A stretch of DNA of 64,000 nucleotides. Origin: Verrucomicrobiaceae bacterium. GTDB lineage: Bacteria; Verrucomicrobiota; Verrucomicrobiia; Verrucomicrobiales; Verrucomicrobiaceae. Both the position numbers and the translations under genes were made by a program. The stretch is taken from positions 1 to 64,000 of the forward strand of contig JAEUHM010000012.1 of assembly GCA_016795485.1 (NCBI GenBank). Reading direction: 5' to 3'. Positions 4,001 through 18,868 of the stretch are shown one piece after another; within the stretch, counting starts at the first letter, position 1, and every line of letters begins with the position of its first letter. The notes under the pieces are model-generated. The model saw nothing but the letters and a program-made list of their open reading frames with translations, did not search any database and was not told where the DNA came from.

Positions 4001-4826
4001 CGCTGAGGTCCAGCTCCTGACCACCCCACTGCTTCCCATGCACCTTTACCTTGCCGTCCTGCTCCAGCGTCACTGACTCCACTTCCACCATTCGCTCCGT
4101 GCGCAATCTGCCAAAGTCGGGCGGTCCCCAGCGCTTCATGGTCGAGACGTGCTTCGCCAAACCGGTGAGGTTGTTGAAGCCATCGTAGGTGCGAGTCACG
4201 CTATCGGTCATGATGGTCTCCATCAGCAATGTGCCGGGCTGCAGCGCCTGGAGAAACGGCGTCATCTGCTCGAAGTAGAGTGAGATGTCGTCGTTGAGCA
4301 GATTCGATGTAGCGTGATCAAACGCGTCATTGGTGGCATCATCAATCGGACTCGGCGGCAGGCGGAACTGATACAACTCCGTGGCTCGCGCATACAGATG
4401 CTGCCCGGCGAGCACTGCGTTCTTCACTGCGTTAGCATCGGCCGCCGGAGCCAGCAGCACGATCGGCTGTGGCAGCGTCACCGTGCCGCTAGGCTCAAGA
4501 TCAGGCATCACCACCGCGTCGTTCACGATCTCGATCGGCCACTCCGGTGAGGGTGGAGTGGTTGGCTTGTCAAAACGGATCTGCGCGCCCTCAAAGTAGC
4601 CCTCTCCTGTGTTGTGAAGGCTGGCGGTGAAAGACAGGCGCTTCCGGCCATCCGGCTCCGTCGTCTCACTGGCAAGCGTGATGGCCTCGATGGTGACTTC
4701 ATTGATGGTGGGTGACAGCTTTTCCAGAATCGTGCCATAGCCGGACACGGCATTGAAGTCCGCGGGAGCGCCAAGCAGATGCGCGGAGCAGACGATCAGG
4801 CAGCAGGTGATGGCAGGTAGGCGCAT
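1056..4826 (-). CDS. large secreted protein with propeller-like region and TSP3-like motif
   Basis: A 1256-residue protein. The frame extends upstream to 4880, but the ATG at 4826 gives a clean signal peptide (MRLPAITCCLIVCSAHLLGA, then P-A-D), so this start is preferred. No enzyme motif is recognised. Residues of roughly 1-600 are beta-rich with no named domain. From about 640 onward there are repeated short blades such as DGGVISYSAAGGDTLALV, FFLKFDDTGALLSS and GWLMKINPDTNQVLWSI, which look like PQQ/Kelch-type beta-propeller blades. Near the end is DFDHDEVSNQMEYLFGGNP, a calcium-binding dockerin/thrombospondin-3-like motif, followed by a short beta domain ending RRFYRMLLD, a tail often seen in verrucomicrobial exported proteins. 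It is probably extracellular or on the cell surface. It is divergent from the ECF sigma gene at 4938, so regulation by that module is possible but not shown. Confidence 0.75.
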   Translation of the reverse strand: MRLPAITCCLIVCSAHLLGAPADFNAVSGYGTILEKLSPTINEVTIEAITLASETTEPDGRKRLSFTASLHNTGEGYFEGAQIRFDKPTTPPSPEWPIEIVNDAVVMPDLEPSGTVTLPQPIVLLAPAADANAVKNAVLAGQHLYARATELYQFRLPPSPIDDATNDAFDHATSNLLNDDISLYFEQMTPFLQALQPGTLLMETIMTDSVTRTYDGFNNLTGLAKHVSTMKRWGPPDFGRLRTERMVEVESVTLEQDGKVKVHGKQWGGQELDLSDVLHLIPSLQTNRRVRGFFDNLRTGTLLMEAIDLVDAGNSEGRDPFDPPVGNTFYTSSETEERAITAAELRDRALLRHPALSDLKGFFSLHMPINEMEIIKGVTVDGEVSLQGAKVGLMVRMKNLAPKFIMVRMGNELEVNLRATIRPGADNTGSLSFEKEKVLTDIALATFYFNVGGVPVEIQPRFKALVGISANVSTQVVLPFTGSFEIGTDYYWDLTAPPGQQFHQEDFKDFRPLALSKPQLADSLSLNVDAWAEAQFSLIINKTIGPYIGPKANFNFQLRPLDNPWWSTSGNVSCKAGFQIRMLGYEITDPAIHEFDGPELFNTGAGGPVQRGSGAGQPPPGPYEPVEGENVRWAKTLQWNNSGPTPYTADIAPVTGAPEEVFLVAPNAFEVSPPVVKLDTKGNVVWAKGAAFMSPRKLAPTPDGGVISYSAAGGDTLALVRHAPNGDVLWVQGVVPVNDDVAQSHRIYSVGGVVVKPTTPGHFEILVGGSLNNNAAAFDDDPFFLKFDDTGALLSSTRYASTNMLETVRDAILLNDGKLLLAGEARGNSDGTPINSGAEWGGWLMKINPDTNQVLWSIRSKPAISWNKVTESPDGIIFTAGNFLPIVTADIPAMTVGAYNANGSIERLISLAEPPITPSSFLDSDDKGVMNYALAKEWLEDSGFTPYDQLLSLAWTPSGLLVTGYTGNGNDTAPMSILLTEKLGVRWMVTHEGDGLPDSTLDVLPTNEGIYTVGVSNSFGSVAGLGILQIAKQPYEGSVPYHKSTHAIVKYLQPTVYNLLVGSWGIHMPHPQVGYEETESFNDRYTPMPLATVAAPPLPQPWNYNDVTGVIQRRLDHGNPNAPMTFTQWVDYMQLPAGTAPEDDFDHDEVSNQMEYLFGGNPYQPDPPLPQLLNISERPDGGIRLHTFRGISSLGTVTPVFTTTALSTSPWLPLGEVPADWQQEPSLFTDPDNTQRLFLDLAPDPATRRFYRMLLD

Positions 4827-4937
4827 GATGCAAAAAAGGGGGTCATGCCGCAGTGAACAGGTCCCGCGCCAGCGTTGCAAAAAGAGTGAAGAAAGTTGCC
4901 GGATTCAGCGGATGAAGGATCGTGTGTGGCGAAAACC

Positions 4938-5660
4938 ATGCCCGACACCCAAGCATCCGCAGACCGCATCTTTCCGCCCACCGCGTGGACGTTGGTGCTC
5001 GCAGCATCGGAGACAGAGGTGGCACGCGAGCAGCTCTGTGGTGCCTACTGGCCCCCAGTGGCCAGGTTCTTGCGCTCGCTCGGCCTCAGTGATCAAGATG
5101 CGGAGGACGGAGCGCAGGAGATCATGACCAAACTGATGGCCCAAGACGGGCTGGCTCAGATTGACCGTTCCAAGGGCATGCTGCGTCACTACTTGAAGGC
5201 GGCCGCGCGGCACTACCTCTTCAACCTGCATAGAGATGCTGGCGCAAAGAAGCGCGGAGGCGGCCAGAACACTATCTCTCTGGATGATGTGGACCACATG
5301 CCTGCGCCCGCTTCCGTGTCGGACGCGCTGTTTGACCAGGCATGGGCGCTCACCATCTGCGAGCGCGCTATGCAGGCATTGGAGGCCAGTTGTGCGCGCA
5401 GAGGAAAAGCCGCGCTCTTTTCCGCACTCAAGCCAGCGCTCACCCTCGGAGATGAACTGCAACGTTATGCCGACATCGGTGCAATGTTTGGCGTGAACGA
5501 AAAACAGATACGCATTGAAGTGCATCGCCTCAGGCGGCGGCTGGCTGAGTTTCTCCGCGCCGAGGTCGCCGCCACCATGGCCCACGGCACCAGCGACTCC
5601 GAGTTGGAAGAGGAGACCCGCTACCTTGTCCGCACCCTGGCTCATGAACCCCGCTCCTGA
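4938..5660 (+). CDS. ECF-type RNA polymerase sigma factor
   Basis: A 240-residue sigma-70 family protein. The N-terminal PPTAWTLVLAAS matches the 'TRWTLV' start of a sigma group common in Planctomycetes and Verrucomicrobia. Region 2 lies in AYWPPVARFLRSLGLSDQDAED plus the following GAQEIMTKLM, and region 4 in YADIGAMFGVNEKQIRIEVHRLRR, the promoter -35-binding helix-turn-helix. An in-frame TTG at 4896 would add 14 residues; the ATG at 4938 fits the family better. The stop overlaps the kinase start by 17 bases, so the two are one translational unit. No anti-sigma gene is present. By analogy with known kinase-linked ECF factors (for example EcfP/PknT), the neighbouring kinase is the likely regulator; this is inference. 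Confidence 0.88.
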   Translation: MPDTQASADRIFPPTAWTLVLAASETEVAREQLCGAYWPPVARFLRSLGLSDQDAEDGAQEIMTKLMAQDGLAQIDRSKGMLRHYLKAAARHYLFNLHRDAGAKKRGGGQNTISLDDVDHMPAPASVSDALFDQAWALTICERAMQALEASCARRGKAALFSALKPALTLGDELQRYADIGAMFGVNEKQIRIEVHRLRRRLAEFLRAEVAATMAHGTSDSELEEETRYLVRTLAHEPRS

Positions 5661-7512
5661 CCAGCCCTGCCCCAAGTGCGGCTCAGCCATGCCCGCCGAA
5701 GCGCTGGGTGGGGTTTGCGCTGCGTGTTTTGCCAGTGGCGCATTGGATGAAGCAAGTGGCTGGCTTTTTTCATCCAGCCACCACGAGGCCGATGACCACG
5801 CCTGGCCACAGGTCCCGGGCTGGCAGATCACCGGCATCATCGGAGCGGGCGGCATGGGGCGAGTGTATCGCGCACAGAGTTTTGAAACCGAACAACTCGC
5901 TGCAATCAAGGTGCTGGAGGGTGCGTGGTCCCGCGATCCACTGATGAGCGCCCGATTTGAGGCAGAAGCGGATGCGCTGAAGCGACTCGACCACCCCAAC
6001 ATCGTCCGTGTGCTGGAAACCTGCGAGTCCGACGATGGCCGGCTCTGCATCGTCATGGAACTGGCCGAAGGCTGCGATCTCGGTCGCCTCATGCGTGCGG
6101 GCAGGCTGGAAAAACAACGCGCCATCAGCATCTTCACCAAGGTGTGCTCCGCCGTCGAGCACGCGCATGAGCAGGGCATCGCCCATCGCGACATCAAGCC
6201 CGCCAACATCCTCATCACGGGTGAAGACGAGGTGAAACTCGCAGACTTCGGCCTCGCGAAAGAAGGCAGCGCGTCCACCATCGGCGCGCTCACCGCCACC
6301 ACAGATCAGTTTGGCACTGCTTACTACTTGGCTCCTGAGCGAATGATCTCGCGCGATCCCGCAGGGCCACCGCAAGATGTTTATGCGCTCGGTGTGCTGC
6401 TTTACCATTTGCTCACAGGCCAGATGCCGATGGGCAACTACACGCCCGCATCGAAGCTGGCCGAACTGCCGCCGACGTTTGATGGAGTCATCGCGAGCGC
6501 GCTGGAGGCTGATCCAGCGCAACGGACTGGGAGTGTCGAAACCCTGCGAGAGGCTGCCACACGAGCCTGGCAGCAACATCTGGATGGTGCCAAGCGTCAG
6601 TCGTGGTTGAAACGGTCCTTCATTACTGCGGCCGCGCTTGTCTTTTCTTCTACACTCGTTGTAGGTGGTGCCACGTGGCAGCGAGCGCGCAACCAACCGC
6701 CACCGCCGCAAGTTTTTTCTCCCCCGTCATCTGCCACCACTGATGCGCCGTGGCAAAACAGTCTCGGTATGAAGTTCGTTCCGGTGGAAGGGACTTCGGT
6801 GCTGTTTTCCATCTGGGAAACGAGACGGCGTGACGTGGAACCTTTCATTGGAGCAGAGAGGGCGCTCATCGCCTCCAGCTACCGCGTGGAACAAGCGGAA
6901 CGCGACCGAAAGAACTTCAACATTCAGATTCTTGGACCGGGCGGGCGGCTTACGTTGGGAGGCAGTTGGGCTGACCCTGGGTTTCCAGTCACGCCAGATC
7001 ATCCAGCCTGCTTTCTGCTGGCTCGGGATGCCGACCGCTTCTGTCAGTGGCTAACCTGGAAGGAGCAGAATGAGGGCCGTCTCGCCCCTGGTCAGTGCTA
7101 CCGTCTGCCGACCGCCGCAGAGTGGCTCATCGCCTGTGGTGGGGAAGACGCAGAGCCCCGCTCTGGCAATGTAGCCGGCCCCGAAGCCCGAGATGACCAC
7201 TGGAATCCCCGCTGGCCCACGTTCACGGAGCGAGATGCCTTCCCGCGCCTCGCCCCGGTTGGCTCATTTCCCGCAGAGCCACATGGTCTCCACGACATCT
7301 CAGGAAATGTCTCCGAATGGGTGCTGCGTGACAGGTCCGGCATCCTCGCCCCATCGCTCGACTTCCAAGCCATCCTCCTCGGTCCAGACTTCCACGACGG
7401 TTCCCCAGAGACCGTAAGTTTCCGCCACCGCCGTCCCGTTCCGAACAACAACATACGACTTCCAAACATCGGCTTCCGCATCGTGCTGGAGCATCAGAAA
7501 GATGGGCCATGA
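5644..7512 (+). CDS. membrane Ser/Thr protein kinase with FGE-like outer domain
   Basis: A 622-residue protein. The ATG at 5644 is chosen because it starts a four-cysteine zinc ribbon (C9, C12, C25, C28); upstream sequence in this frame lies inside the sigma gene. The kinase domain spans about 60-315: glycine loop GAGGMGRVY, lysine K89, HRD at 181-183 with D183 catalytic, DFG at 201-203. A transmembrane helix follows at about 326-344, then a Pro-rich linker and a formylglycine-generating-enzyme-like domain (about 375-622) with YRLPTAAEWLIACGG, PVGSFPAEPHGLHDISGNVSEW and a final GFRIV. The cysteines that make true FGE catalytic are absent near the C-terminus, so the domain is probably a ligand sensor. 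Most likely it phosphorylates the co-translated ECF sigma factor in response to an outside signal (inference). It ends four bases before the convergent gene. Confidence 0.9.
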   Translation: MNPAPDQPCPKCGSAMPAEALGGVCAACFASGALDEASGWLFSSSHHEADDHAWPQVPGWQITGIIGAGGMGRVYRAQSFETEQLAAIKVLEGAWSRDPLMSARFEAEADALKRLDHPNIVRVLETCESDDGRLCIVMELAEGCDLGRLMRAGRLEKQRAISIFTKVCSAVEHAHEQGIAHRDIKPANILITGEDEVKLADFGLAKEGSASTIGALTATTDQFGTAYYLAPERMISRDPAGPPQDVYALGVLLYHLLTGQMPMGNYTPASKLAELPPTFDGVIASALEADPAQRTGSVETLREAATRAWQQHLDGAKRQSWLKRSFITAAALVFSSTLVVGGATWQRARNQPPPPQVFSPPSSATTDAPWQNSLGMKFVPVEGTSVLFSIWETRRRDVEPFIGAERALIASSYRVEQAERDRKNFNIQILGPGGRLTLGGSWADPGFPVTPDHPACFLLARDADRFCQWLTWKEQNEGRLAPGQCYRLPTAAEWLIACGGEDAEPRSGNVAGPEARDDHWNPRWPTFTERDAFPRLAPVGSFPAEPHGLHDISGNVSEWVLRDRSGILAPSLDFQAILLGPDFHDGSPETVSFRHRRPVPNNNIRLPNIGFRIVLEHQKDGP

Positions 7513-7516
7513 ACCT

Positions 7517-9112
7517 TTATGGCTCCATCACTTCCAAGTCCGAGAACAGCACGCACCAGTTCCACAACGGATACGCCTGTCCCGCCCGTGTGCCGTAGCT
7601 GGCATCGCCAAAGGTATAAACTGCACGCTCGGGGTCCGAGTCCCTCACATTGCCGTAGCTGAACGCCCGCTGGGCAGTCACCGCCTGCCCGACCTCAAAC
7701 GGCACGCCATTGCGCAGCTCCCGCGCCTCGAAACGCAGCACGCTCACGCCGTTCTCATCCCTCACTGAGCGCACCGGCACCCGCGTGCCCGAACTGGCCA
7801 CAAAGAACGCGCCTTCATCCAGCAACGGCTTCAACTCCTTCGTAAAGCTCCGTGTCAAAACCAGTTCCTCACCTCGAATCGCCACGATGGTCCCCAGCGC
7901 CGCCGCGAACGGATAGCCATAGCTCACGCGACATGTTTCACCCGCAGGCAACGGCTTGGCAAAACGAAGCCTCACACTCGTCGGCGATGCCAGCTCGACC
8001 GCCGTCAGCGTGACGCCATGTACACGAAAGCCCGCCAAAGTGCTGAAGCCACCTTCCACCACCGATTCCTGCCTCGGGAGAAAACGCGTATCGATCACCA
8101 ATGGCGGCCTTGGCACTGTGAACTCGATCACGAGGCCGTCACGCGAGGCGTCGAGCTTTGCCGCACGCGGCCGCAGCGGCTGCCAGGCCTCCTTTTCATG
8201 CAAAACACGATGCATGACCTTCCCCACCTGCTCGCCCCACCAGCGCTCGCCATCGGCGGCGAGGTGAATGGCATCGCCGTGACGATTCGGCGGGTAGAGG
8301 CTGTTCAAAGCACTCGGCACCGCATAGTGCGGCCCTACCATGTGAATCGCTTCATCCGCATCCGTCGCCATGAGCTGCGCCTCACCTGCTGGACCGAGCG
8401 TTTGATACGTAAACATCGGCAACTCGCCCTTTTGCCCCGTGATCGCACACAAATCCGCCGACCACTGCTTTCGATACGCGATGAGTTGATCGCGATACCA
8501 CTTCAAGCCCTCCGCACGCGGCATCTCCGCATCCCAACGCGTCGGCACAAGGCCACCCTTCGCTCCGCCATTGCCCTCGCCCTGCATCCAGTAGAGCGCC
8601 TCGATGCGGAAATCCGGCCTCAGCGCCTTCGCCCGCCGCGCATCATCCAAACTCGTCTTGTAGTAGCCACCACCATGCTTCTTCGCCTCCGGCGTGCGTT
8701 CATCCACCGACAGATCCGCACTCGATAGCTCCTGAATCTGCCGTCCGCCCTGTCCCGCGCATGCGACGAGGTAATGCGCAGGGCCCTGCTGCCGTGAAGA
8801 AAGATGATCCGCCATCCCATTCGCCACCGTCTCACCGAGTCCGCCATTCACCGTCGCCCGCAGCGGCACGAACTCGAACAACTCCGCGCCCCGCTTCTCC
8901 GGCGTCGCCGAGTTGTCCTTCGCCAGCCACGTCCGCACCCCGCGCTGAAACATCAGATTGCCCCAAGCACTCCCCTTCTCACTCACCACCGGCAGCGACT
9001 CGGACCCATCACACAACGACTGCCCCATCATCCAGATGCCGGACATGCTGTCTTGCGAATGCGCGAAACAAGCCGCAACTAGTGAGATGATGGTCGTCAT
9101 GTGGACTTTCAT
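7517..9112 (-). CDS. secreted sialate O-acetylesterase-like SGNH hydrolase
   Basis: A 531-residue exported protein. The N-terminus (MKVHMTTIISLVAACFAHS) is a short signal peptide; an alternative start is the ATG at 9100. IWMMGQSLCDGSESLP carries the GQS block with the nucleophile serine; further on are YWMQGEGNG (QGE block) and DAIHLAADGERWWGEQ, the D-x-x-H block that completes the SGNH catalytic set. This order matches the DUF303/SASA carbohydrate esterases that remove acetyl groups from sialic acids, xylan or other glycans. The C-terminal third is beta-rich. The start overlaps the stop of the DUF2971 gene by four bases. As the last gene of a minus-strand series of secreted carbohydrate-active proteins, it most likely deacetylates a polysaccharide; the actual substrate is unknown. 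Confidence 0.82.
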   Translation of the reverse strand: MKVHMTTIISLVAACFAHSQDSMSGIWMMGQSLCDGSESLPVVSEKGSAWGNLMFQRGVRTWLAKDNSATPEKRGAELFEFVPLRATVNGGLGETVANGMADHLSSRQQGPAHYLVACAGQGGRQIQELSSADLSVDERTPEAKKHGGGYYKTSLDDARRAKALRPDFRIEALYWMQGEGNGGAKGGLVPTRWDAEMPRAEGLKWYRDQLIAYRKQWSADLCAITGQKGELPMFTYQTLGPAGEAQLMATDADEAIHMVGPHYAVPSALNSLYPPNRHGDAIHLAADGERWWGEQVGKVMHRVLHEKEAWQPLRPRAAKLDASRDGLVIEFTVPRPPLVIDTRFLPRQESVVEGGFSTLAGFRVHGVTLTAVELASPTSVRLRFAKPLPAGETCRVSYGYPFAAALGTIVAIRGEELVLTRSFTKELKPLLDEGAFFVASSGTRVPVRSVRDENGVSVLRFEARELRNGVPFEVGQAVTAQRAFSYGNVRDSDPERAVYTFGDASYGTRAGQAYPLWNWCVLFSDLEVMEP

Positions 9113-9954
9113 GTCGTTGGTTTGTCGACGAATCTGAGCTTGAAGGCGTTCGAGTCTAAGTAGGCCCTCTTAAAGATCACGTGCTTATAGTCAGGCTGCT
9201 TTGCCATCTCTTCGATGGCGTCATATGTTTTTTCCTCTGGGTGATCGTAGCAGCCCACGAGTACGCTCTTCACTCCCTCAGGATCAAAACTCAGATCAAG
9301 AGGGACCTCTTTGTCTAAACCATCGAGGGAAGGCACCCTAATGCGAACCTCTTCTTCGTAGCTCCACTCGAGCGCCTTTGTTGTCAGCACGCGCAGTAGC
9401 CCTTCCTCAAAAGAGTTCACGTCTGCATGTAATCCAGGAATAGATGCTGGATTGCTGCGATAGCGCACCTCATACGCTTCTGGTGTTAAATCTATGCCCT
9501 CTAATATTTCGCTCGTTTCAAATTCAATCACCAAGCCTTTGTGTTGCTCCGCATAATGAGACCACATCAAAATTGAATCGTTTCGGTGCGAGCAGCAGAG
9601 TATTCTAAACCCCTCGGCTATTTTCCCCACCATTTCCCATCTCATTTTCACGGCTCTGTTGTTCCAACCTTCTGAAGTCTCGAGCTTTTGAAATCTTCGT
9701 GGCAGTTCGACCGAATGATACTCATGAGAGCTTTCCTCTCGTGAAAGCCCTTTTTTGCTTCCCACCTTCAGGAAATAATCTTCCACAATGTGATCGGCCA
9801 GCAAGCGGCCCAGAAGCAGCTCATCAGAAGGCCGCTCGATAAGTGGGGTCATTTCAAAAGGATCATTAAACGCCAAAGGGCTCGCAAAGCGCAGAGTTCG
9901 ACTTCTGAGGGTTGCCAATCCACCTTTGGCATTGAAGTAGCGAAAAAGTTTCAT
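9109..9954 (-). CDS. DUF2971 family protein
   Basis: A 281-residue cytosolic protein with the DUF2971 signature: MKLFRYFNAKGGLATLRSRT, then LRFASPLAFNDPFE, CCSHRNDSILMWSHYAEQHKG (the conserved S-x-x-x-D-x-x-x-W-x-x-Y-x-x-x-H-x-G block), and KALEWSYEEEVRI. DUF2971 has no established activity; members are widespread, patchily distributed and often found in accessory or defence-rich DNA. It breaks up an otherwise uniform series of exported enzymes, lacks a signal peptide, and looks lower in GC than its neighbours by eye, which suggests insertion. Its stop overlaps the start of the acetylesterase gene. Three overlapping inverted repeats sit directly upstream and may be its operator. Confidence 0.85.
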   Translation of the reverse strand: MKLFRYFNAKGGLATLRSRTLRFASPLAFNDPFEMTPLIERPSDELLLGRLLADHIVEDYFLKVGSKKGLSREESSHEYHSVELPRRFQKLETSEGWNNRAVKMRWEMVGKIAEGFRILCCSHRNDSILMWSHYAEQHKGLVIEFETSEILEGIDLTPEAYEVRYRSNPASIPGLHADVNSFEEGLLRVLTTKALEWSYEEEVRIRVPSLDGLDKEVPLDLSFDPEGVKSVLVGCYDHPEEKTYDAIEEMAKQPDYKHVIFKRAYLDSNAFKLRFVDKPTT

Positions 9955-9967
9955 GGGTGCCAGTTGA

Positions 9968-10045
9968 GGAACAAAATTCTGCCGATGGGCTGGAGTAAAT
10001 TATTTCGATATTTACCAGAATGTAGATTTTGTTCCGACATTCTGG
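9968..10045 (-). promoter_or_regulatory. three interleaved inverted repeats upstream of the DUF2971 gene
   Basis: Within 78 bases before the DUF2971 start (9954) there are three perfect inverted repeats: CCAGAATGT 10015-10023 with ACATTCTGG 10037-10045; GGAACAAAA 9968-9976 with TTTTGTTCC 10027-10035; and GTAAAT 9995-10000 with ATTTAC 10010-10015. They share bases, so only some can form at once. As DNA they look like a dyad operator; as RNA they could switch structures. The AT-rich centre is a plausible promoter location on the minus strand, but no clear -35/-10 pair is assigned. The remainder of 9955-10088 holds no gene. Confidence 0.5.
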
Positions 10046-10088
10046 CAAGGATCGAAGGTTTTTGATTCTTGGCAGTATACTGGGCTTC

Positions 10089-12527
10089 TCATTTGGAGGC
10101 GTTCGACTGCAGCCCCCTCATCAGCACCTCCTGCATCGTCGTCTCTGGTTTTCCATCCAACGGATGCCGCACCTCGCATTTCACGCCAAGAGGCGTCAGC
10201 GTATCCTGAAGCATCAAACCGAGCAACACGCTGTGTGTCGGATCCTTTTGAGATTCGCCTTTGATCGGTGGTTTGTCCTCTTTGGTGGTCAAAATGACGG
10301 CGGGAGGATCATCAGCGCTCGCGTGAGACATCGGCGACCACTCGCGGAGGTCGGCGAGGTGCTTGTCACGGTTGGCGAGGAAGGGCGCGAAGGTCTCTTT
10401 TCGCGTTTTGCCCACGTAGCCGAAGGCATGGCCGCCGTATTCGCTGTTCGGAATCCATTCGACGAGCTGTTTCGGGTCGAGCGAGGGCTGCGGAGCCTTC
10501 GTCGCGGTAAAAATCACGCGAGTGGACTCGCGGGCGATGGCATCGGCGGACTTCGCGTCGGCCATGTCATCGTGCATCGCCAGCCAGAGGCTGGAGCAGC
10601 CACCGGCGCTCACACCGCAGGCGGCGATGCGGGTTTTATCGAGATGCCACTCGGCGGCTTTTGAACGCAGATGCTGCAAAGCCCGCGCAGCATCATGAAG
10701 CGGCCATTGCAGCGGTGGCGTGACCTTTGCGGCGTTCGCATCGGCAAGAAAGCGGTAGTTGATCGACGCCACGGAGATGCCGACATCGAGAAACGCCCGC
10801 ACATCGAGATGCTGATGAATGTCCGTCTTGTCCTGCGCCCCCCAGCCGCCGCCGTGGATGTAAAACACCACCGGCGAGGGTTTCTCCGACTTCGCCAGCC
10901 ACACGTCCATCGTCTGCCGAAAGTGCGGGCCATACGCCACATCGACGAAAGTCGCTGGCGTGGCATCGGCTTTGTCCGTGGCGTAAAGCTTGCGCACCTC
11001 GACGGGCGGCATCCAGCCGTTCAGGCGCTGCTCATCGGGTTGGTAGGCGCAGGTGATGAAGTAAAGGCCGTCCACTGCAAGCTTCTGCGGCGGCACGTTC
11101 ACCTGCACCTGCGTGAAGCCATCCGCGAACCAGCTTTCGTAGCCATCCGCCGCGACAGGCTTCAGCGCGTGACCGTTGAGTCGCACATCGAGCTTCGTCG
11201 GTGCTCGATACGGCAGACGCATGCGGAAACCGATGCCCTTCGTGATCGTCGCATCCGTCGTCGCGGCCAGCAGTTGCTCGTTTGGCACCTCCATCGCCAC
11301 TTTGAGTTCGGGACCGGCTTCGATGAACTTCTTCACCGCTTCGGGAAATTCCTTCGCGGCGATCTTTTGCTTCGCCGCCGCCGTCGTGGCCACCACGAAG
11401 CTCTCGCGGCCCACCGTCTGCGGATAGAGAAAGCCGAGCGCGAACTCGCTCTGCTGGTTCCACAGCTCCACGCGACTCGCACGACGCTCCGTCGCATTCC
11501 GACCATACGCGGTGACAAAATGCCCGACGAAGTGCCGCAGACGATTCACGGGATAACCCGTCACCTTTTCATCCTGCCACGCTTCGTTACCTATCTTCAT
11601 GAGGCCCTTCATCCGCGCCACGAGGCTCTGCTCCCACGCCACCTCCTGCGTGATGACCATCGTGTGATACTTCGCGTAGCCATAGTGCGCCGAATAAAAG
11701 AGCGGCATGCCGTGCCAGAGCTTTTTGCCCAGCGGTGCCAGCTCCGGCCCCCAAAACGTGCGCTGCGCATCCGCTTCAAAACGATCCGAAGGGAAGCCAG
11801 CCTCTTTGCCTGCGGCGATCATCGCCTCCGTTACCCGCCAGTCCCACGGGCGCAGCGCGTAGTTCGAATAGGCACCGCCAGTCACTTCCGTCATGATCTG
11901 GCCCTGATACATGCGACGCGAGCCGAGTTGATCCGGCGCATACTCCTGCAAACCGGTGCCATGCAGGTCCGCATGCACCTCCGGCTGGTATTCATCGATG
12001 ACCGAGAGCACTGCCGCGAGCTCCGGGGCCTGTTCTGGCTTGTTGATCGTCAGTGACTTCACATCCCAGATCTTCCCCACGCGTCCTGTGCCCGTGTAAG
12101 GATCGACGCCGTGCTCGTTGCGAAAGCGATCCGTGTAAAACATCGCCAGCGGATTCACGCAGGGCATGATGAGCACGATCTGACGTTTCCGCGTCTCCAC
12201 CGCGAGCGGGTCATCGCTCAGGCACCACTCCGCAAAGGCCATCGCACCCGTTGTGCCCGTGCGCTCCGGCCCGCTGTGCAGCGTGGTGACGAGGCACACC
12301 TGCTTGTCCGTGCTCTTGACTGTCGGATCGGTGATCTTCAGCAGATACACCGGCATGTTCTGACCGCTCAAACCACGTGATTCGAGCGTGGCGACCTTTG
12401 GATAGGCTTTCCGCCAATGCGCCAGCGTGCCCGCATACTCCTCCCACGTCAGCCGGTGCATCGGCGCATGCCTTTCCTGTCCGGTGACGAACGTAAACGA
12501 CAGAGCTAAGAGAGCAAAGAATCTCAT
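10089..12527 (-). CDS. secreted M14 carboxypeptidase-like / alpha-beta hydrolase fusion
   Basis: An 812-residue protein; the ATG at 12527 begins a signal peptide (MRFFALLALSFTFVTG), so the upstream extension to 12569 is discarded. The first ~330 residues resemble zinc carboxypeptidases of family M14: TLHSGPERTG (first zinc site), EVHADLHGTG (second histidine), and VITQEVAWE (candidate catalytic Glu). The first site reads H-S-G-P-E, one residue longer than the usual HxxE. A beta-rich linker (about 330-520) leads into an alpha/beta hydrolase: VVFYIHGGGWG (oxyanion hole), AACGVSAGG (nucleophile elbow GxSxG) and a late THSVLLG histidine. The hydrolase part resembles carboxylesterases of the BD-FAE/esterase-lipase kind. 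Two catalytic domains in one exported chain suggest work on an acylated peptide- or ester-linked polymer; substrate unknown. It starts 10 bases after the previous gene's stop. Confidence 0.8.
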   Translation of the reverse strand: MRFFALLALSFTFVTGQERHAPMHRLTWEEYAGTLAHWRKAYPKVATLESRGLSGQNMPVYLLKITDPTVKSTDKQVCLVTTLHSGPERTGTTGAMAFAEWCLSDDPLAVETRKRQIVLIMPCVNPLAMFYTDRFRNEHGVDPYTGTGRVGKIWDVKSLTINKPEQAPELAAVLSVIDEYQPEVHADLHGTGLQEYAPDQLGSRRMYQGQIMTEVTGGAYSNYALRPWDWRVTEAMIAAGKEAGFPSDRFEADAQRTFWGPELAPLGKKLWHGMPLFYSAHYGYAKYHTMVITQEVAWEQSLVARMKGLMKIGNEAWQDEKVTGYPVNRLRHFVGHFVTAYGRNATERRASRVELWNQQSEFALGFLYPQTVGRESFVVATTAAAKQKIAAKEFPEAVKKFIEAGPELKVAMEVPNEQLLAATTDATITKGIGFRMRLPYRAPTKLDVRLNGHALKPVAADGYESWFADGFTQVQVNVPPQKLAVDGLYFITCAYQPDEQRLNGWMPPVEVRKLYATDKADATPATFVDVAYGPHFRQTMDVWLAKSEKPSPVVFYIHGGGWGAQDKTDIHQHLDVRAFLDVGISVASINYRFLADANAAKVTPPLQWPLHDAARALQHLRSKAAEWHLDKTRIAACGVSAGGCSSLWLAMHDDMADAKSADAIARESTRVIFTATKAPQPSLDPKQLVEWIPNSEYGGHAFGYVGKTRKETFAPFLANRDKHLADLREWSPMSHASADDPPAVILTTKEDKPPIKGESQKDPTHSVLLGLMLQDTLTPLGVKCEVRHPLDGKPETTMQEVLMRGLQSNASK

Positions 12528-12537
12528 GGCTGAGGGC

Positions 12538-14103
12538 TTAGTGCAGTGTGATGGCATAGACCGCCGCACTTTGAAGATGAATGCGGATGAGATACATGCC
12601 CGCAGGTAAATCTGAGAGTTTCTTCCCCTTCCAAGTTAGCCTGAAACGGGTGGTATCCTTTTTTAGCGGCGTGCAGTTGGCCTTGTCAAAGCCAGGGATT
12701 CGATAGCCGTCCTCGTCCAGGATATCGCACCAGACTGTGCCTCCCAGTGCATTTGCATTGACGTAAAGGTCGGTTCGGCCTGAGAGACTGATCGACTTCA
12801 AAGTGATCTGTCCGATGTCCGGCGGCAACTTCACCTTTGCAGTCGCAGGCTCTGGTTGGCTGCGGATGCCTGCAAACCGATCCAGTGGGAGGGAGACCAT
12901 GCCGACACCGCTTTTTTGCTGATCGCCAGTGATGTTGGTGCCACCACCGATCGCACCGCTACTGTAAGCACCGTAGTAGAAGCGCATCTCGCGGCCGTCG
13001 ATGATGATATCCGAGTTGGTAGCGATTGTGCCACTGTCAAAGTGACCCTCTGGACTGCGTTGTAACCACAGGTCTTTTCTAAAGGGACGCTGCCAGTCGA
13101 GACCGTCCCGGCTGATCATCAACTCGATGTCCATGGTGCCACCACCTGGCCGATTGAGGATCTGATTGAGACTGAAGTAGCGGTTATGCCGGAAGAATAC
13201 AGGAGAAGTGTGGAACTCCAGTGCGCCGTCTTGTTCGTCAGGAAAACAAACGATCTGGGGTTTGCTCCAGTGCAATAGATCACCACTTTCTACGCGTCCC
13301 ATTCCGTGTTTCCAGGCGAGACCACCATCCGGGCCAGGAATCCACGCTTTCCCGTAGATCGCCCAAAGCTTCCGTTTTGGATCAAATACAGGGTCTGCGG
13401 CGTCAGACATGCTGATAGGTCGCAAGAGTTGCCTCTTTACACGATCACCAGAGAGCTTCGTCTCCGAGTATGGGTTCTGCCCGCTAAAAGGAGGCTGTAA
13501 CTTCTTGCCGCCAAAAGCAGTGCTGTAGAGGGGTGCTTTGGAGTGTTTTGTCCACCGAATGCCATCTGGAGAAAATGCAATGTGTAGTCCCGCGATGACC
13601 TCACCTTCCTTTGACTTTGCCCAGTCGTAGTAGAGCATCTTGTAGCGCTTGGATGCGTCTGGCTCTTTCGGATCGACAATCACACTGTTGCAATAACGGT
13701 CGCCATAAACACCGCTTCCGATGAGCACAATGTTGGTGTTCTCCTCTTCGTTAAACGCGAACAGCCCGAGGTTCGGCTTGGTGAATGTAATCCCGTCCGC
13801 TGACTCTGCATAGCACACCACACACTCATGCGTCTTCAGCTTAGCACGGCTTCCAGCATAAGCCTGATACCACAACTGATAGCGTCCAGTAGACTTGTCG
13901 CGATGCACGCTCGTCCAAGCGATTGCCATTTCCCATGGCTTATCCTCGGTGATGAGGGGATTTGCCGCATGTCGTACAGGTTTCTCCAAAATGCGCTGAG
14001 TGCCTGCCCGGAAGAGGATGTCATGATCATCCACGAAGAGAATGGTCTGATCGACAGCATGGACCAAACCCAGCGTGAAGTAGACAAAGCAAAGTATCTT
14101 CAT
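12538..14103 (-). CDS. exported five-bladed-propeller glycosidase-like protein
   Basis: A 521-residue protein with a short signal peptide (MKILCFVYFTLGLVHA). The body shows beta-propeller blades typical of the arabinanase/levansucrase/invertase fold: YQLWYQAY, CYAESADGITFTKP, YKMLYYDW, IAFSPDGIRWTKH, LMISRDGLDWQRP and RFYYGAYSSG. The pattern 'S.DGI.W....' is common in GH32/GH43-like proteins of Planctomycetes and Verrucomicrobia. The catalytic acids cannot be assigned with certainty, so it may be a non-classical member. A small beta domain (about 440-521) ends the chain. The start overlaps the preceding beta-helix gene's stop by four bases (ATGA), indicating one transcript; role in polysaccharide breakdown is inferred from fold and neighbours. 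Confidence 0.75.
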   Translation of the reverse strand: MKILCFVYFTLGLVHAVDQTILFVDDHDILFRAGTQRILEKPVRHAANPLITEDKPWEMAIAWTSVHRDKSTGRYQLWYQAYAGSRAKLKTHECVVCYAESADGITFTKPNLGLFAFNEEENTNIVLIGSGVYGDRYCNSVIVDPKEPDASKRYKMLYYDWAKSKEGEVIAGLHIAFSPDGIRWTKHSKAPLYSTAFGGKKLQPPFSGQNPYSETKLSGDRVKRQLLRPISMSDAADPVFDPKRKLWAIYGKAWIPGPDGGLAWKHGMGRVESGDLLHWSKPQIVCFPDEQDGALEFHTSPVFFRHNRYFSLNQILNRPGGGTMDIELMISRDGLDWQRPFRKDLWLQRSPEGHFDSGTIATNSDIIIDGREMRFYYGAYSSGAIGGGTNITGDQQKSGVGMVSLPLDRFAGIRSQPEPATAKVKLPPDIGQITLKSISLSGRTDLYVNANALGGTVWCDILDEDGYRIPGFDKANCTPLKKDTTRFRLTWKGKKLSDLPAGMYLIRIHLQSAAVYAITLH

Positions 14104-15248
14104 GGGCGATAGTCGTGAGGCACAAGTTTCATCAGGTCGACGACATCAGCGCCAACGTCAGGGTTTTCGTGTTTTAGCTCTCCCCGTGCATCAAAGTTGA
14201 TGTTCTCTAACGTGATGCGTTTCGCACGCACGACCGCTGTTGCTGCGATCAGCGCCGTTCTCGGCTCCACCAGCCTACGGAAGAGCACGTTGTCCAAATC
14301 CAGTTCACAGCGCTTATCTTCGCGCCCCGTGACGGTGAAGGGATTCTGAGCTTTGGAGTAGATCACGGCGTTCGTGAGCTTGTAGCGACCATCGTCTAGG
14401 AAAAACAAGTCGTAGCCGATGCAGTCGGCAATGAAGACGCGGTTGTAGCTCGTCCTTGCGGCTACGGTGTCACAGATGCCAGTGCTGTTGCCGATGCTCA
14501 CGAAGCCATCGACGCTATACTCAGCCGTTTCGTGAGCGCTGATGCCATCGTCTCCGCATTCAATGGCGCGAATGTCTTCAAACACCACGTCGCGGCAGTC
14601 ACCGTGAATATTGAAGCCATCGTTGTATGGATGAGTGGCCGTTAGATTGCGGATCACTAGATGTGCATTGTCGCCGCCAAACTGAACACCCGCACTTCTC
14701 ATCGGGGCGCGAATGTTTGCTTTCGTTAGGTCTTTCCCCTCTTCGATCTTGATGTAGAAAGTACCGAAGATGGCACGTGAAGGTGGTTTTTCTCGGCTTG
14801 GATCCTTAACAAAGGTCCACTCACCGGGTTGAAGTTCTTCAGGCTTTTTTAGCGGTGCTTGTTTGCCCTTCGAGGTGCGGCCCATGTGTTGCATGTGGCC
14901 ATCAAACAGGAAAAACCAGCGCCCGATCACCGCATCACTCAGTCCCGGCATCAGGTCATCATTCGCAAACAATCCAGGAGAGACCGCGCGCCACTGTTTG
15001 ACATCAAGCGGATCACTTCCCTCCAAAGTTGCGCCGTGGCCGTCCAAGGTAATTGGCTTACCAGGCTCGCCTTTCTTCATGTAAAAGCCCGCGTATTCCG
15101 AGTACACCTTCGGCTCCAGATGAATCGTGTCCCCCGCTGCCGACAGTTTGATGGCGGCGTCAATCGTGGGCACATCTTTGCCTACGTGGATATCACGTGC
15201 TGGCAGGCTAGTGCATGAAACAATAATTGCAGCGGAGAGAGCTCGCAT
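14100..15248 (-). CDS. exported right-handed parallel beta-helix protein
   Basis: A 382-residue protein. The frame runs upstream to 15380, but the ATG at 15248 starts a signal peptide (MRALSAAIIVSCTSLPARD); IVSC could also be read as a lipobox. The body begins like many pectate-lyase-like proteins: VPTIDAAIKLSAAGDTIHLEP, then KPITLDGHGATLEG, followed by coils such as LVIRNLTATHPYNDGFNIHGDCRDVVFEDIRAIECGDDG (here split by short turns). Parallel beta-helix proteins cleave or bind acidic polysaccharides. The catalytic residues are not identified, so lyase, hydrolase or binding roles all remain open. It is first in the minus-strand series 15248-7517 and is divergent from the second kinase, sharing a 106-base promoter region with it. 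Confidence 0.78.
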   Translation of the reverse strand: MRALSAAIIVSCTSLPARDIHVGKDVPTIDAAIKLSAAGDTIHLEPKVYSEYAGFYMKKGEPGKPITLDGHGATLEGSDPLDVKQWRAVSPGLFANDDLMPGLSDAVIGRWFFLFDGHMQHMGRTSKGKQAPLKKPEELQPGEWTFVKDPSREKPPSRAIFGTFYIKIEEGKDLTKANIRAPMRSAGVQFGGDNAHLVIRNLTATHPYNDGFNIHGDCRDVVFEDIRAIECGDDGISAHETAEYSVDGFVSIGNSTGICDTVAARTSYNRVFIADCIGYDLFFLDDGRYKLTNAVIYSKAQNPFTVTGREDKRCELDLDNVLFRRLVEPRTALIAATAVVRAKRITLENINFDARGELKHENPDVGADVVDLMKLVPHDYRP

Positions 15249-15354
15249 TCCTTGGTCAAACGACCTCCGCAAGGCCATTCGTTCACCCCTTCGGCTGATC
15301 CTGACAAGGCATTGCCAGCAAACTTTGGTTCGGTATGCTATAGATCGTGATGCG

Positions 15355-17421
15355 ATGATCTCTCCCGACCAGCATGACATTCTTCCAGGCTACGAAGTGC
15401 TCGACCTAGTCGGGCGCGGCGGGATGGGTGTTGTTTACAAGGCGCGGCAGGTTTCGCTGGATCGGGTTGTGGCCATCAAGTTGTTGCCGCGAGAACTGAT
15501 CCGCGATGACATCGACTTCAAAGAGCGCTTCAAGCAGGAGGCGCGCACGATGGCCAGACTCTCGCATCCGGGAATCGTGCCGGTGTATGACTTTGGTGAG
15601 ACGGGGGACGGGCAGTTGTTCTTCGTCATGGAGTTCATCGATGGCACGGACTTGGCTAAGGTGATCGAGCAACGCGGTGCGCTGCCGGTGCATGAAGCGG
15701 TGCGCATTTTCCGCGCGGTGGCTGAGGCGCTGGTGTATGCGCATGGCGAGGGCGTCGTGCATCGCGATATCAAACCGGCGAACGTGCTAATCAAAGCGAA
15801 CGGCGAGGTAAAAGTGGCTGACTTTGGTTTGGCGAAGATCATTACACCGGGGACGGTGGGCGTTACCGCGACCAGCACATCCATGGGCTCGCATGACTTT
15901 GCAGCACCCGAGGTTTTTGTGCATGGTGGCGATGCGGATCACCGTGCGGATGTGTATTCGCTGGGCGTGATGCTTTACCAGATGCTCACGGGCGTGATCC
16001 CACGCGGCATGTTCAAGCTTCCATCAGAGCGGGTGCCGGATTTGGACGCACGGTTTGATGAGTTGATCTGTAAAGCGCTGGAACAGGATCGCGAGGATCG
16101 CTTTCAGTCCGTGCGGGAGATGCTTGTGGTGATGCAGGAGAGCACGGGCCTGATCCTTGCCTCAGATCGGCAGATCGTGACTCATCCTGCTAAGCAAATA
16201 TGGGTGTGGGTCTCTTCCACGTTGTTGATGTTAGTGGCAGGTGGATCACTCTGGATGCTCAAAGATCAGACGCCGGAGGATTCATCAGCCGTGTTTCGCG
16301 GACATCGCTATCAATACTTTCCGGGTGCATTTACTTGGGTTCAGGCACAGGCCAATGCACTTAGTCTGGGAGGGCATCTGGCTACTTTGACCAGCGCGGA
16401 GGAGAACGAGTGGGCTTGGAAACAGTTCTCTCCGCTACTGAGGTATGAAGGCAAGCCACCTCTGAAGAACAGAGGCTGGTGGATCGGGGGGTTGCCTGTG
16501 GAGCCAGATAAAACGTGGCGGTGGGTCACAGACGAGCCCTTTGAATACGCCTGCTGGTCGCTGGAGAAGTGGCCGACAGCACGCGTGCCTCGTTTGCGTC
16601 AGCATGACAACGGGGGTGACGCTGGCCTCTCTGCCTGGACACCGGTGCATTACTCTGAACGCTGTGGCTATCTGGTGGAGTGGGAGCATTCTGGTAATCC
16701 TCCAGTGGGTAGTGAGGCCGAGGTAAGAGCCTTCCTCTCGTGGCTACTCAGCTTGCCGCGCTCCACCGAACCCAACCACAACGAACACGAAGTGCCGGAC
16801 TTCATGATCGAGGGATCAAACCGCAACTTTCGCCGTCTGTTGGATGTTCCAGCTGGACCCTTGATATTGACCCGCGTGCGCATTGGGCAACTTCAGATCA
16901 ACGATACCGCGCGGCGCTATCTGCAGACCCTCTCACGCCAGACACAGCTCTACGATCTGCGTATTTACAGCACTGACAGTGCCGAGTTGTTTCGCTATTT
17001 GGGTGGGCTCAAGAGGCTTGGCACTTTGGTGATAAAGGCAGCTAAGGGAGGAGCCCTGCCCCTTTCGGATGACGAACTGGTGCATCTCAGCTCCATGTCT
17101 AACCTCAGCCAACTGCGGCTAGAAGGCTGGCATGGCCTGACAGGGTCTGGGCTTGAGCATTTGAAGGAAAAGCGCAAGCTTGTGTCCCTCAGTATCAACG
17201 AATGTCCGGATTTTGATCGTCACGGCATCACGGCCGCAGCGGCTTTCTCTAACCTTGAGACCTTATCCATCGTGGGTGCTCATCGGATAACAGATGAGGA
17301 TGTGAAACAGTTAGCCCCATTGGTTAAGCTGAGATCTCTGGGCCTCGGAGGCACTAGTGTGACACCTCAAGGCATCGCGGAACTACAGAAGCTGATGCCA
17401 GAATGCGTCATTAACCGCTGA
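15355..17421 (+). CDS. membrane Ser/Thr protein kinase with C-type-lectin and LRR outer region
   Basis: A 688-residue protein; the ATG at 15355 sits just before the kinase domain, while the longer frame runs into the divergent gene. Kinase: VGRGGMGVVYKA glycine loop, K42, HRD at 136-138, DFG at 156-158, APE at 184-186. A transmembrane helix lies at about 282-302. Outside is a C-type-lectin-like domain (about 310-440) with WVQAQANALSLGGHLATLTS, GWWIGGLP and CGYLVEW, then leucine-rich repeats ending LRSLGLGGTSVTPQGIAELQ. Both modules bind ligands, so this is a one-chain sensor kinase. It ends exactly where the convergent ECF sigma gene ends (no spacer). The probable target is that sigma factor, by analogy with the first module in this window (inference). 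Confidence 0.9.
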   Translation: MISPDQHDILPGYEVLDLVGRGGMGVVYKARQVSLDRVVAIKLLPRELIRDDIDFKERFKQEARTMARLSHPGIVPVYDFGETGDGQLFFVMEFIDGTDLAKVIEQRGALPVHEAVRIFRAVAEALVYAHGEGVVHRDIKPANVLIKANGEVKVADFGLAKIITPGTVGVTATSTSMGSHDFAAPEVFVHGGDADHRADVYSLGVMLYQMLTGVIPRGMFKLPSERVPDLDARFDELICKALEQDREDRFQSVREMLVVMQESTGLILASDRQIVTHPAKQIWVWVSSTLLMLVAGGSLWMLKDQTPEDSSAVFRGHRYQYFPGAFTWVQAQANALSLGGHLATLTSAEENEWAWKQFSPLLRYEGKPPLKNRGWWIGGLPVEPDKTWRWVTDEPFEYACWSLEKWPTARVPRLRQHDNGGDAGLSAWTPVHYSERCGYLVEWEHSGNPPVGSEAEVRAFLSWLLSLPRSTEPNHNEHEVPDFMIEGSNRNFRRLLDVPAGPLILTRVRIGQLQINDTARRYLQTLSRQTQLYDLRIYSTDSAELFRYLGGLKRLGTLVIKAAKGGALPLSDDELVHLSSMSNLSQLRLEGWHGLTGSGLEHLKEKRKLVSLSINECPDFDRHGITAAAAFSNLETLSIVGAHRITDEDVKQLAPLVKLRSLGLGGTSVTPQGIAELQKLMPECVINR

Positions 17422-18153
17422 TTACTTCCCCACGATGCTCATCAACTGCTCCAGTTCGGCTTTGACTTCAGTTGGATCGCTCACCGTTTCCGCAATGACT
17501 TGTTCAATGAGCTTTGCATACCGCTTCCTCATGCGGTGGATTTGCAGGCGCAAAGTGGCCTCGGTGATGCCGAGCTTTTTTGCGGCAGAGGCATAAGGAG
17601 TAGCGTTTTCGCCGAGAGGGAGGAACTCTCTCAAGTCATCAAAGGCCTCCGCGTTGTCTGCCTTGGCGTAGTCGTCACGGAGTCTTGACTCTGCGGCAGC
17701 GAGCACTTCATGTGCCCAGGCTTTGTCAAAAATCGCATCGGCATCCTCTCCGCCCAGCGGTTCGGCGATGTAGCGCTCTTCGGCGTTGAGTTCTTCAAAG
17801 GATAGAGTGGCAGCCCTCATTCCTCCTCTTTTGTAAGCGCTATCATGTCGAACTTGCTTGCTGATGATGCGCTTGAGCATAGCGAGCATGAAACTGCGGA
17901 GTTTTCCTTTCTCCTGAGTCACGGCCTGCAGAGACTCGTAGCTGACGAGGTTCTGGAAAAACACTTGAGTGAGGTCTTCGGCATCTTCGGCACGGAATCC
18001 GTGGCGGCGTGCATAGGCGTAGATCGGGTACCAGTAGCTGCGGCAGAGCTGGTCCAGGGCTTGGGCCGACTCTCGCTCGCCGCCGTGCTGCACCCTGCGG
18101 ATGAGGGTCCAGCGCGTCAATGGGAAGTCAGAGTTGTGGGAAGTCTCGGCCAT
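17422..18153 (-). CDS. ECF-type RNA polymerase sigma factor
   Basis: A 243-residue sigma factor starting MAETSHNSDFPLTRWTLIRR, the standard start of this family. Region 2: SYWYPIYAYARRHGFRAEDAED and LTQVFFQNLV; region 4: PYASAAKKLGITEATLRLQIHRMRKR. The same frame is open upstream to 18744 and would add about 200 residues, mostly seven-residue repeats of the form QNHSAPL. The short start is preferred because nothing like the extension is known in the family, but see the findings for evidence that the repeats may be translated. Its promoter must lie in or near the 21-bp repeat array that begins 89 bases upstream. It converges with the kinase at 15355-17421 with no gap. Confidence 0.85.
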   Translation of the reverse strand: MAETSHNSDFPLTRWTLIRRVQHGGERESAQALDQLCRSYWYPIYAYARRHGFRAEDAEDLTQVFFQNLVSYESLQAVTQEKGKLRSFMLAMLKRIISKQVRHDSAYKRGGMRAATLSFEELNAEERYIAEPLGGEDADAIFDKAWAHEVLAAAESRLRDDYAKADNAEAFDDLREFLPLGENATPYASAAKKLGITEATLRLQIHRMRKRYAKLIEQVIAETVSDPTEVKAELEQLMSIVGK

Positions 18154-18241
18154 TTTTGGCGTCTGCCGCTGAACATGGAGCGGTTTCTCCCGGAGACAAG
18201 TTACGCCTCCCAGAAGCCCTGCTAGGCCAAATAGAGGGCGC

Positions 18242-18577
18242 GCAGAATGGTTTTGCAAAGGCGCAGAATGATTCTGTAGCGGTGCAGAATGATTCTGTCG
18301 TGTCGCAGAATGGTTCTGCAAAGGCGCAGAATGATTCTGCAGCGGTGCAAAATGATTCTGTCGTGTCGCAGAATGGTTCTGCAAAAGCGCAGAATGATTC
18401 TGCAGCGGCGCAAAATGATTCTGTCGTGTCGCAGAATGGTTTTGCAAAGGCGCAGAATGATTCTGTCGTGTCGCAGAATGGTTTTGCAAAGGCGCAAAAT
18501 GATTCTGTCGTGTCGCAAAATGGTTCTGCAAAGGCGCAGAACCATTCTGCAGCGGTGCAGAATCATCCTGTACCTGC
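18242..18577. repeat. array of sixteen 21-bp palindromic repeats
   Basis: Sixteen head-to-tail units of exactly 21 bases fill 18242-18577 without spacers. Each holds a 13-base core; the commonest, CAGAATGATTCTG, is a perfect palindrome about a central G. Other units have CAGAATGGTTCTG or CAGAATGGTTTTG; unit 15 has the reverse-complement form CAGAACCATTCTG. The eight bases between cores come in three types (TGCAAAGGC, TGYAGCGGT, TGTCGTGTC endings) that often recur in order, giving a 63-base higher-order repeat. 21 bases is two helical turns, so all dyads face one side of the helix. The array starts 89 bases before the sigma start and lies in the 715-base gap before the giant surface gene. Bases 18641-18868 of that gap show no gene or clear promoter. 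Confidence 0.95.
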
Positions 18578-18640: not shown

Positions 18641-18868
18641 CAACGGGCTAGCAAGGGGCTGGAAGAGGGTTTGGCTGTTTCCAGGTGAGGAGCCGGGGCG
18701 AGCCGAGCCGCCAGTTGCCGTGAAAATAGGGATTGCTTGTCCAATGCAAGGTGGCGTAAAACATTGGCAGCGGGATCTGATCGCCACCAATCTCCCCAAA
18801 TCCGTCACTTTTTTGGAAACAAACCGGCTTTCACCGGTAATGCAACGTGTGAGCCATCTTCTCTGCCC

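Follow-up and report, generated by a model that had tools for sequence, protein, structure and literature searches.

Two kinase and ECF-type sigma factor modules in a Verrucomicrobiaceae genome, and the giant secreted proteins they probably switch on

The modules and their conserved neighbours

The window considered here, the first 64,000 nucleotides of contig JAEUHM010000012.1 (assembly GCA_016795485.1) from a Verrucomicrobiaceae bacterium, contains two modules, in each of which the gene for an extracytoplasmic function (ECF) type sigma factor stands beside one for a membrane Ser/Thr kinase. Enzyme genes lie between the modules, and on the outer flank of each, divergent from its sigma gene, is the gene for a very large protein, here termed giant 1 or giant 2, with a predicted promoter before its start codon (Table 1). 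As the initial annotation had it, sigma1 and kinase1 overlap by 17 bases, the shared bases being ATGAACCCCGCTCCTGA, and kinase2, for which ATG 15355 is a chosen start, meets sigma2 tail to tail with a gap of 0, the stop of the one ending at 17421 and that of the other beginning at 17422. Also borne out were a single transmembrane helix per kinase (residues 326-344 in kinase1 and 284-302 in kinase2, from a hydropathy scan) and the lack of an anti-sigma factor, a scan of 10 proteins encoded between 1056 and 18744 having turned up none. The Pfam Pkinase model matches the two kinases at 170.5 and 173.2 bits, both keep the HRD and DFG motifs as judged by eye from their translations, and both giants begin with a hydrophobic signal-like start.

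Table 1. Positions of the features of the two modules, of their flanks and of one enzyme gene between them (aa, amino acids)
Feature	Position	Strand
Giant 1: 1256-aa secreted protein, divergent from sigma1, no Pfam match	1056-4826	-
Predicted promoter of module 1, TGCAAC-N15-GTTC, directly 5' of giant 1 ATG	4855-4879	-
Sigma1: ECF-type sigma factor, DAED intact in region 2.2	4938-5660	+
Kinase1: N-terminal CxxC..CxxC ribbon, Ser/Thr kinase domain, one transmembrane helix, FGE-like outer domain	5644-7512	+
Beta-mannosidase-like enzyme	12541-14103	
Kinase2: Ser/Thr kinase domain, one transmembrane helix, C-type-lectin-like and LRR outer region	15355-17421	+
Sigma2: ECF-type sigma factor, convergent with kinase2, DAED intact	17422-18153	-
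Predicted promoter of module 2, GGAAACAA-N14-GTAATGCAAC, directly 5' of giant 2 ATG	18815-18846	+
Giant 2: 1899-aa secreted FG-GAP/DUF11 protein, divergent from sigma2	18869-24568	+

What stays beside such modules in other genomes? In orthologous regions the conserved neighbour is the gene divergent from sigma, outside the bracket that the two modules form. The sigma2 clade comprises 16 loci, from nine genomes of the family (the host's own included) and one of the order. At 14 of them there is a convergent kinase gene, the exceptions being L126, whose contig stops 46 bp past sigma, and L127, where none was found; likewise at 14 of the 16 a gene of at least 1000 aa is on the divergent side, with smaller open reading frames (ORFs) intervening in L123 and L125, and the exceptions in this case being L122a, where a second kinase is present instead, and L124a. 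For sigma1, a newly mapped orthologous region (L227) has a homologue of giant 1 (1578 bits) divergent from the sigma position and a kinase1 homologue on the opposite side. Genome-wide in the host, a gene of at least 1200 aa is within 1.5 kb of 12 of the 26 modules of this sigma family; for other ECF genes the count is 0 of 21 and for random gene pairs 15 of 160. In the sigma1 and sigma2 clades the link to giants is strong.

Two other genomes have sigma2-type modules in tandem, two of them at L122 and three at L124/L125. The gene divergent from the first L122 sigma is the kinase of the second module, and it is preceded by a promoter-like site (leave-one-out fraction 0.00125), so arranged that it might constitute a cascade. 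At the 3' end of the giant 2 gene (24446-24564) a 24-bp tandem repeat encodes C-terminal glycine-rich repeats of GGGGNIVA type.

Promoter sequences facing the giants

The sequence TGCAAC-N15-GTTC precedes the giant gene at all four loci with a sigma of about 50% identity or more to sigma1 (the window, L064, L114 and L226, the last of which was fetched after the motif had been noted), and was in none of nine more distant loci tested whose kinases have an outer domain like formylglycine-generating enzyme (FGE). With the slightly longer TGCAAC-N15-GTTCNC, the host genome has 8 sites, two of which are 23-26 bases 5' of the start of a large secreted gene, these being giant 1 and the giant of the nearest paralogue; a further site is inside the sigma gene of that paralogue, at least 123 bases 5' of its kinase start.

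For module 2 the shared element is a different one. Sigma2-clade loci share, in the intergenic region between the divergent genes, TGAAACAA-N14-GTA-like elements oriented toward the giant, and the copy in the window, GGAAACAA-accggctttcaccg-GTAATGCAAC, scores 26.2 bits in leave-one-out testing, a value equalled by none of 4000 random genome stretches. The same 0/4000 was obtained for 10 of the 16 sigma2-clade loci; L122a and L231 gave fractions of 0.00125 and 0.00225, and the weak loci were L124a (0.068), L128 (0.087), L070 (0.14) and L129 (0.20), L122a and L124a being scored but kept out of the training set. Four loci retrieved once the motif was on record (L214-L217; neighbourhoods L228-L231) yielded three strong matches and one moderate. 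Exact GAAACAA-N13/14-GTA sites number 8 in the 6.5 Mb host genome, one of them directly 5' of the giant 2 ATG; as the reversed pattern occurs 35 times, the motif is not over-represented genome-wide. Between sigma2 and this predicted promoter, at 18240-18570, are some 16 copies of a 21-bp unit, equal to two helical turns, with the near-palindrome CAGAAT-G-ATTCTG, which was not seen as an array in the other fetched loci.

The promoter sequences thus differ between the modules and each is common to orthologues elsewhere, and they have been kept where the giants have not: the L064 and L114 giants are without a match to giant 1, and the sigma2-clade giants form at least two groups. ECF promoters follow a rule of an AAC-containing -35 element with a short -10 element about 16 bp away, and, going by base sequence, both predicted promoters fit that pattern. 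In the host genome a broader pattern, TG[ACT]AAC at -62 to -36, picked after some of the tested loci had been inspected, precedes 7 of 14 module-adjacent genes of at least 700 aa, the figure for control genes being 6 of 378 (Fisher p 2e-8). At the same place 5' of sigma genes even the looser [TG]G[ACT]AAC was present in just 1 of 25, so that autoregulation of sigma through this motif was set aside, and from these two counts the output of the circuit seems to be the neighbouring gene and not sigma itself. No description of the promoters of this sigma family, or of a link between such kinase-sigma pairs and giant genes, was recognised in the open-licence literature.

The sigma family, its kinases and the switch

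The sigma factors belong to a family expanded in the host's bacterial family, where it is present in 23 of 24 genomes with up to 27 members per genome, and rare in the rest of the phylum sample (6 of 39 genomes, the host's included). A profile search gave 27 matches in the host genome, which represent 26 loci because one sigma gene is split by a frameshift. That split gene (L085:6795-7605) has a kinase nearby, and is either a decaying module or an assembly error. ECF (group 4) sigma factors have the sigma2 and sigma4 domains only. Sigma1 is below the curated cut-offs of both Sigma70_r2 (22.7 versus 24) and TIGR02937 (35 versus 42.9), and Foldseek with its structural model retrieved ECF sigmas with E values no better than 0.009 and a poor fit on superposition, but SigE is matched by the profile of the family over positions 18-215 with E 4e-8.

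Pairing with a kinase is general. A kinase ORF is within 3.5 kb at 23 of the 26 host loci, and at a further host locus (L070) the C-terminal part of one is visible at the contig edge; with related genomes included, and one fragment of a split sigma dropped, the count is 76 of 90 sigma matches. Sigma and kinase distances correlate, at 0.32 for 22 host pairs (reached in 0 of 5000 permutations) and 0.37 for 73 pairs (0 of 2000), three of the 76 pairs having been dropped from the latter set since their sigma or kinase match was too weak, short or far. These results sustain the proposal that two kinase-sigma circuits run in parallel and lack an anti-sigma factor, and pairing and correlation together argue for the kinase acting on sigma.

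By what means might it do so? The initial annotation invoked EcfP/PknT of Vibrio parahaemolyticus, of group ECF43, which, like EcfK/PknS of Xanthomonas citri, has an ECF-type sigma beside a Ser/Thr kinase and lacks an anti-sigma factor, as do the modules here. In that mechanism a neutral residue at the DAED position keeps the sigma from binding core RNA polymerase as long as the kinase has not phosphorylated it. According to section 3.4 of a 2022 review, EcfP has STTA at this position (PMC8999054). Extending that mechanism to the present sigmas is very improbable. The adjacent kinase and missing anti-sigma factor are as in ECF43, but the last position of the motif is acidic in all 73 paired sigmas (D in 69, E in 4), both window sigmas having DAED itself; since the acidic motif is already in place, the switch probably does not work by supplying an acidic patch. 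As a phosphosite, the Thr two positions past DAED was considered and passed over, being T or S in only 50 of the 73 and Ala in sigma1. A better candidate from the alignment is an N-terminal Thr, invariant in the 73, followed three residues on by Ser or Thr in 71 (T-x-W-[ST]), at the start of the first predicted helix; a structural role for it is equally likely since in the model it is just before that helix and beside a low-confidence stretch.

An alternative to phosphorylation is that the kinase serves as a tethered anti-sigma factor, which holds sigma by binding and frees it on signal with catalysis being secondary. With its core-binding motif intact, sigma would need some such restraint, and a CxxC..CxxC element, loosely resembling zinc anti-sigma domains, is present ahead of the kinase domain in 46 of 72 sigma-linked kinases. 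On the other hand kinase2 begins directly with its kinase domain and is without the element, and both window kinases have kept HRD and DFG. Though to be taken seriously, tethering is on balance unlikely.

The initial annotation placed the two outer domains in one structural superfamily. FGE, TvpA and C-type lectins belong to a single such superfamily. For kinase1 this stands, its outer domain being FGE-sulfatase at 67 bits, above the Pfam cut-off, with profile matches to solved FGE chains and to TvpA chain 2y3c. The catalytic cysteine pair of FGE is near the C terminus; the corresponding stretch of the kinase1 domain has no cysteine, and a single one is present in 1 of 10 aligned outer domains. 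For kinase2 the assignment is less firm: Lectin_C at 18.6 bits is under its cut-off of 22.6, as LRR_14 is under its own, and it is in the profile search of the PDB with four sequences of the outer region that C-type-lectin-type chains (best 1.7e-8) and LRR chains (1.5e-13) were matched. The AlphaFold model has pLDDT below 50 at residues 56-128, which is the lectin-like region, so the lectin fold rests on the sequence match; among the 50 Foldseek matches listed for that model nearly all are LRR proteins, and one is a C-type-lectin-type chain (4uxm, E 1.7e-4). Across sigma-linked kinases the outer regions vary widely (FGE, WD40, TPR, M23, S26, lectin/LRR or no match). One sigma2-clade kinase (L231:4832-8365) has an outer region that matches the FGE-like domain of kinase1 at 55-59 bits, from which outer domains seem to have been exchanged between module types. 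Ser/Thr kinases with FGE-like outer domains have precedent, chains named as kinases in the PDB (5nxl; ToxD 7spq) matching the kinase1 outer domain; what differs here is the coupling of kinase1 to a sigma gene and to a giant gene with a predicted promoter.

What the circuits serve

Each module is probably a circuit that switches on its own giant and not the enzymes between the modules. The membrane Ser/Thr kinase, with its outer domain for binding, would control the sigma encoded beside it, and that sigma, together with core RNA polymerase, would read its own ECF-type promoter 5' of the back-to-back giant gene; the kinase would more likely release or hold sigma by phosphorylating or binding another site than the acidic motif, for instance around the invariant T-x-W-[ST]. 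The sequences show how the genes are arranged, that this arrangement is conserved, and that the promoter sequences which face the giants are specific to the sigma clade; we infer from them binding of the promoter by sigma, action of the kinase on sigma, and a surface or extracellular location of the giants. The sigma1 and sigma2 circuits differ in promoter and are probably without cross-talk.

The initial annotation had instead proposed that both circuits sense glycans and control the secreted enzymes between them. Of that enzyme block, the protein with M14 peptidase and BD-FAE esterase matches is above cut-off, and the matches are weak for three others, the esterase-like, the beta-helix and the beta-mannosidase-like protein, whose starts look signal-like by eye; the remaining one of the five, a DUF2971 protein (9112-9954), has no signal-like start, and the description of the block as secreted enzymes is partly right. 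Physical proximity and the lectin-like outer domains are in favour of such control, as is the existence elsewhere of beta-mannosidase-like genes beside family members: in G084 one stands head to head with the gene of another family sigma, whose nearest relative is the L073 sigma that has no kinase, and in G086 one adjoins a fragment of such a sigma gene. At L236 a beta-mannosidase-like gene is head to head with a sigma of the family, followed by a second sigma gene. Given the G084 and G086 arrangements, some family member may control the enzyme elsewhere, though on present evidence not sigma1 or sigma2 here. Against control in the window, neither predicted promoter is 5' of any of the five enzyme genes, where the best matches score 10-12 of 17 and 12 is reached by 7% of random stretches. 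Homologues of the beta-mannosidase-like enzyme are in 17 of 68 genomes of the family, the host's included, and near-identical enzymes elsewhere are on other contigs than the sigma1 and sigma2 orthologues; in the six other genomes with both the enzyme and a sigma2 orthologue (G010, G016, G024, G081, G085 and G104, all draft assemblies) the two are never on one contig. The mapped sigma1- and sigma2-type regions contain no such block, the peptidase/esterase protein having only three matches there, at 154, 38 and 28 bits, and the conserved partners are instead the giants on the outer flanks. The glycan and enzyme proposal is accordingly improbable, and the enzyme genes are probably bystanders. Could the promoters be real, and another sigma read them, the adjoining kinase-sigma pair being incidental? 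Promoter sequence tracks sigma clade, differs between clades and survives a change of giant family, and the 6 of 378 control genes indicate how rare such a site at such a place is elsewhere in the genome, all of which makes reading by another sigma improbable.

Several considerations weigh against control of the giants by their own modules. Giants are not a trait of the sigma family as a whole: in an unbiased sample of 40 regions from related genomes, picked by sigma score alone and containing 42 sigmas, a gene of at least 1000 aa is within 1.5 kb of 7, as against 24 of 160 random pairs, and large proteins are common in the host, 5.6% of 249 sampled genes encoding at least 1000 aa. L127 has giant and promoter and no kinase in the following 4.2 kb. 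Nearest sigma and nearest kinase coincide in only 6 of the 22 host pairs, for which reason strict one-to-one co-evolution was dropped as a strong claim. The promoters were first spotted by eye in loci later included in the statistics, those of the window were in view as the consensus was drawn up, and the truly independent loci are five, four for module 2 and one for module 1.

Comparison with known systems gives some perspective. EcfK of the X. citri pair is encoded in a neighbouring region for a secretion system, which it serves (PMC8999054, section 3.4; PMC13147305). As here, kinase regulation of ECF59, ECF61, ECF62, ECF217 and other Planctomycetes groups is predicted from gene neighbourhood, and the same review has it that, ECF43 apart, the kinase-linked groups retain a DAED-like motif and may have a different mode of action (PMC8999054). 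What sets the present family apart from ECF43 is the intact DAED, the back-to-back giant with a private predicted promoter, the approximately 26 loci in one genome and the many different outer domains.

In Bacteroidetes, pairs of ECF sigma and anti-sigma factors beside SusCD genes constitute one sensor, one sigma and one neighbouring surface-protein gene; here a kinase replaces the anti-sigma factor and the target proteins are unrelated. A tentative extension, rather less probable than the individual circuits for giants 1 and 2, is that the cell has around two dozen mutually orthogonal kinase-sigma circuits with their own promoters, many with one giant, such that the sensor engaged determines which giant surface protein is displayed, and that sensors and giants are swapped between circuits while the match of sigma to promoter is kept.

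The results name testable triples of sigma, promoter and target in a group whose regulons are almost entirely unmapped, and they point to another route, besides that of EcfP, by which a Ser/Thr kinase may switch a sigma factor, with the acidic motif retained. If correct, control of the giants by their modules would give a first means of telling when these bacteria produce their very large secreted proteins, and the family would constitute a natural set of orthogonal sigma-promoter pairs.

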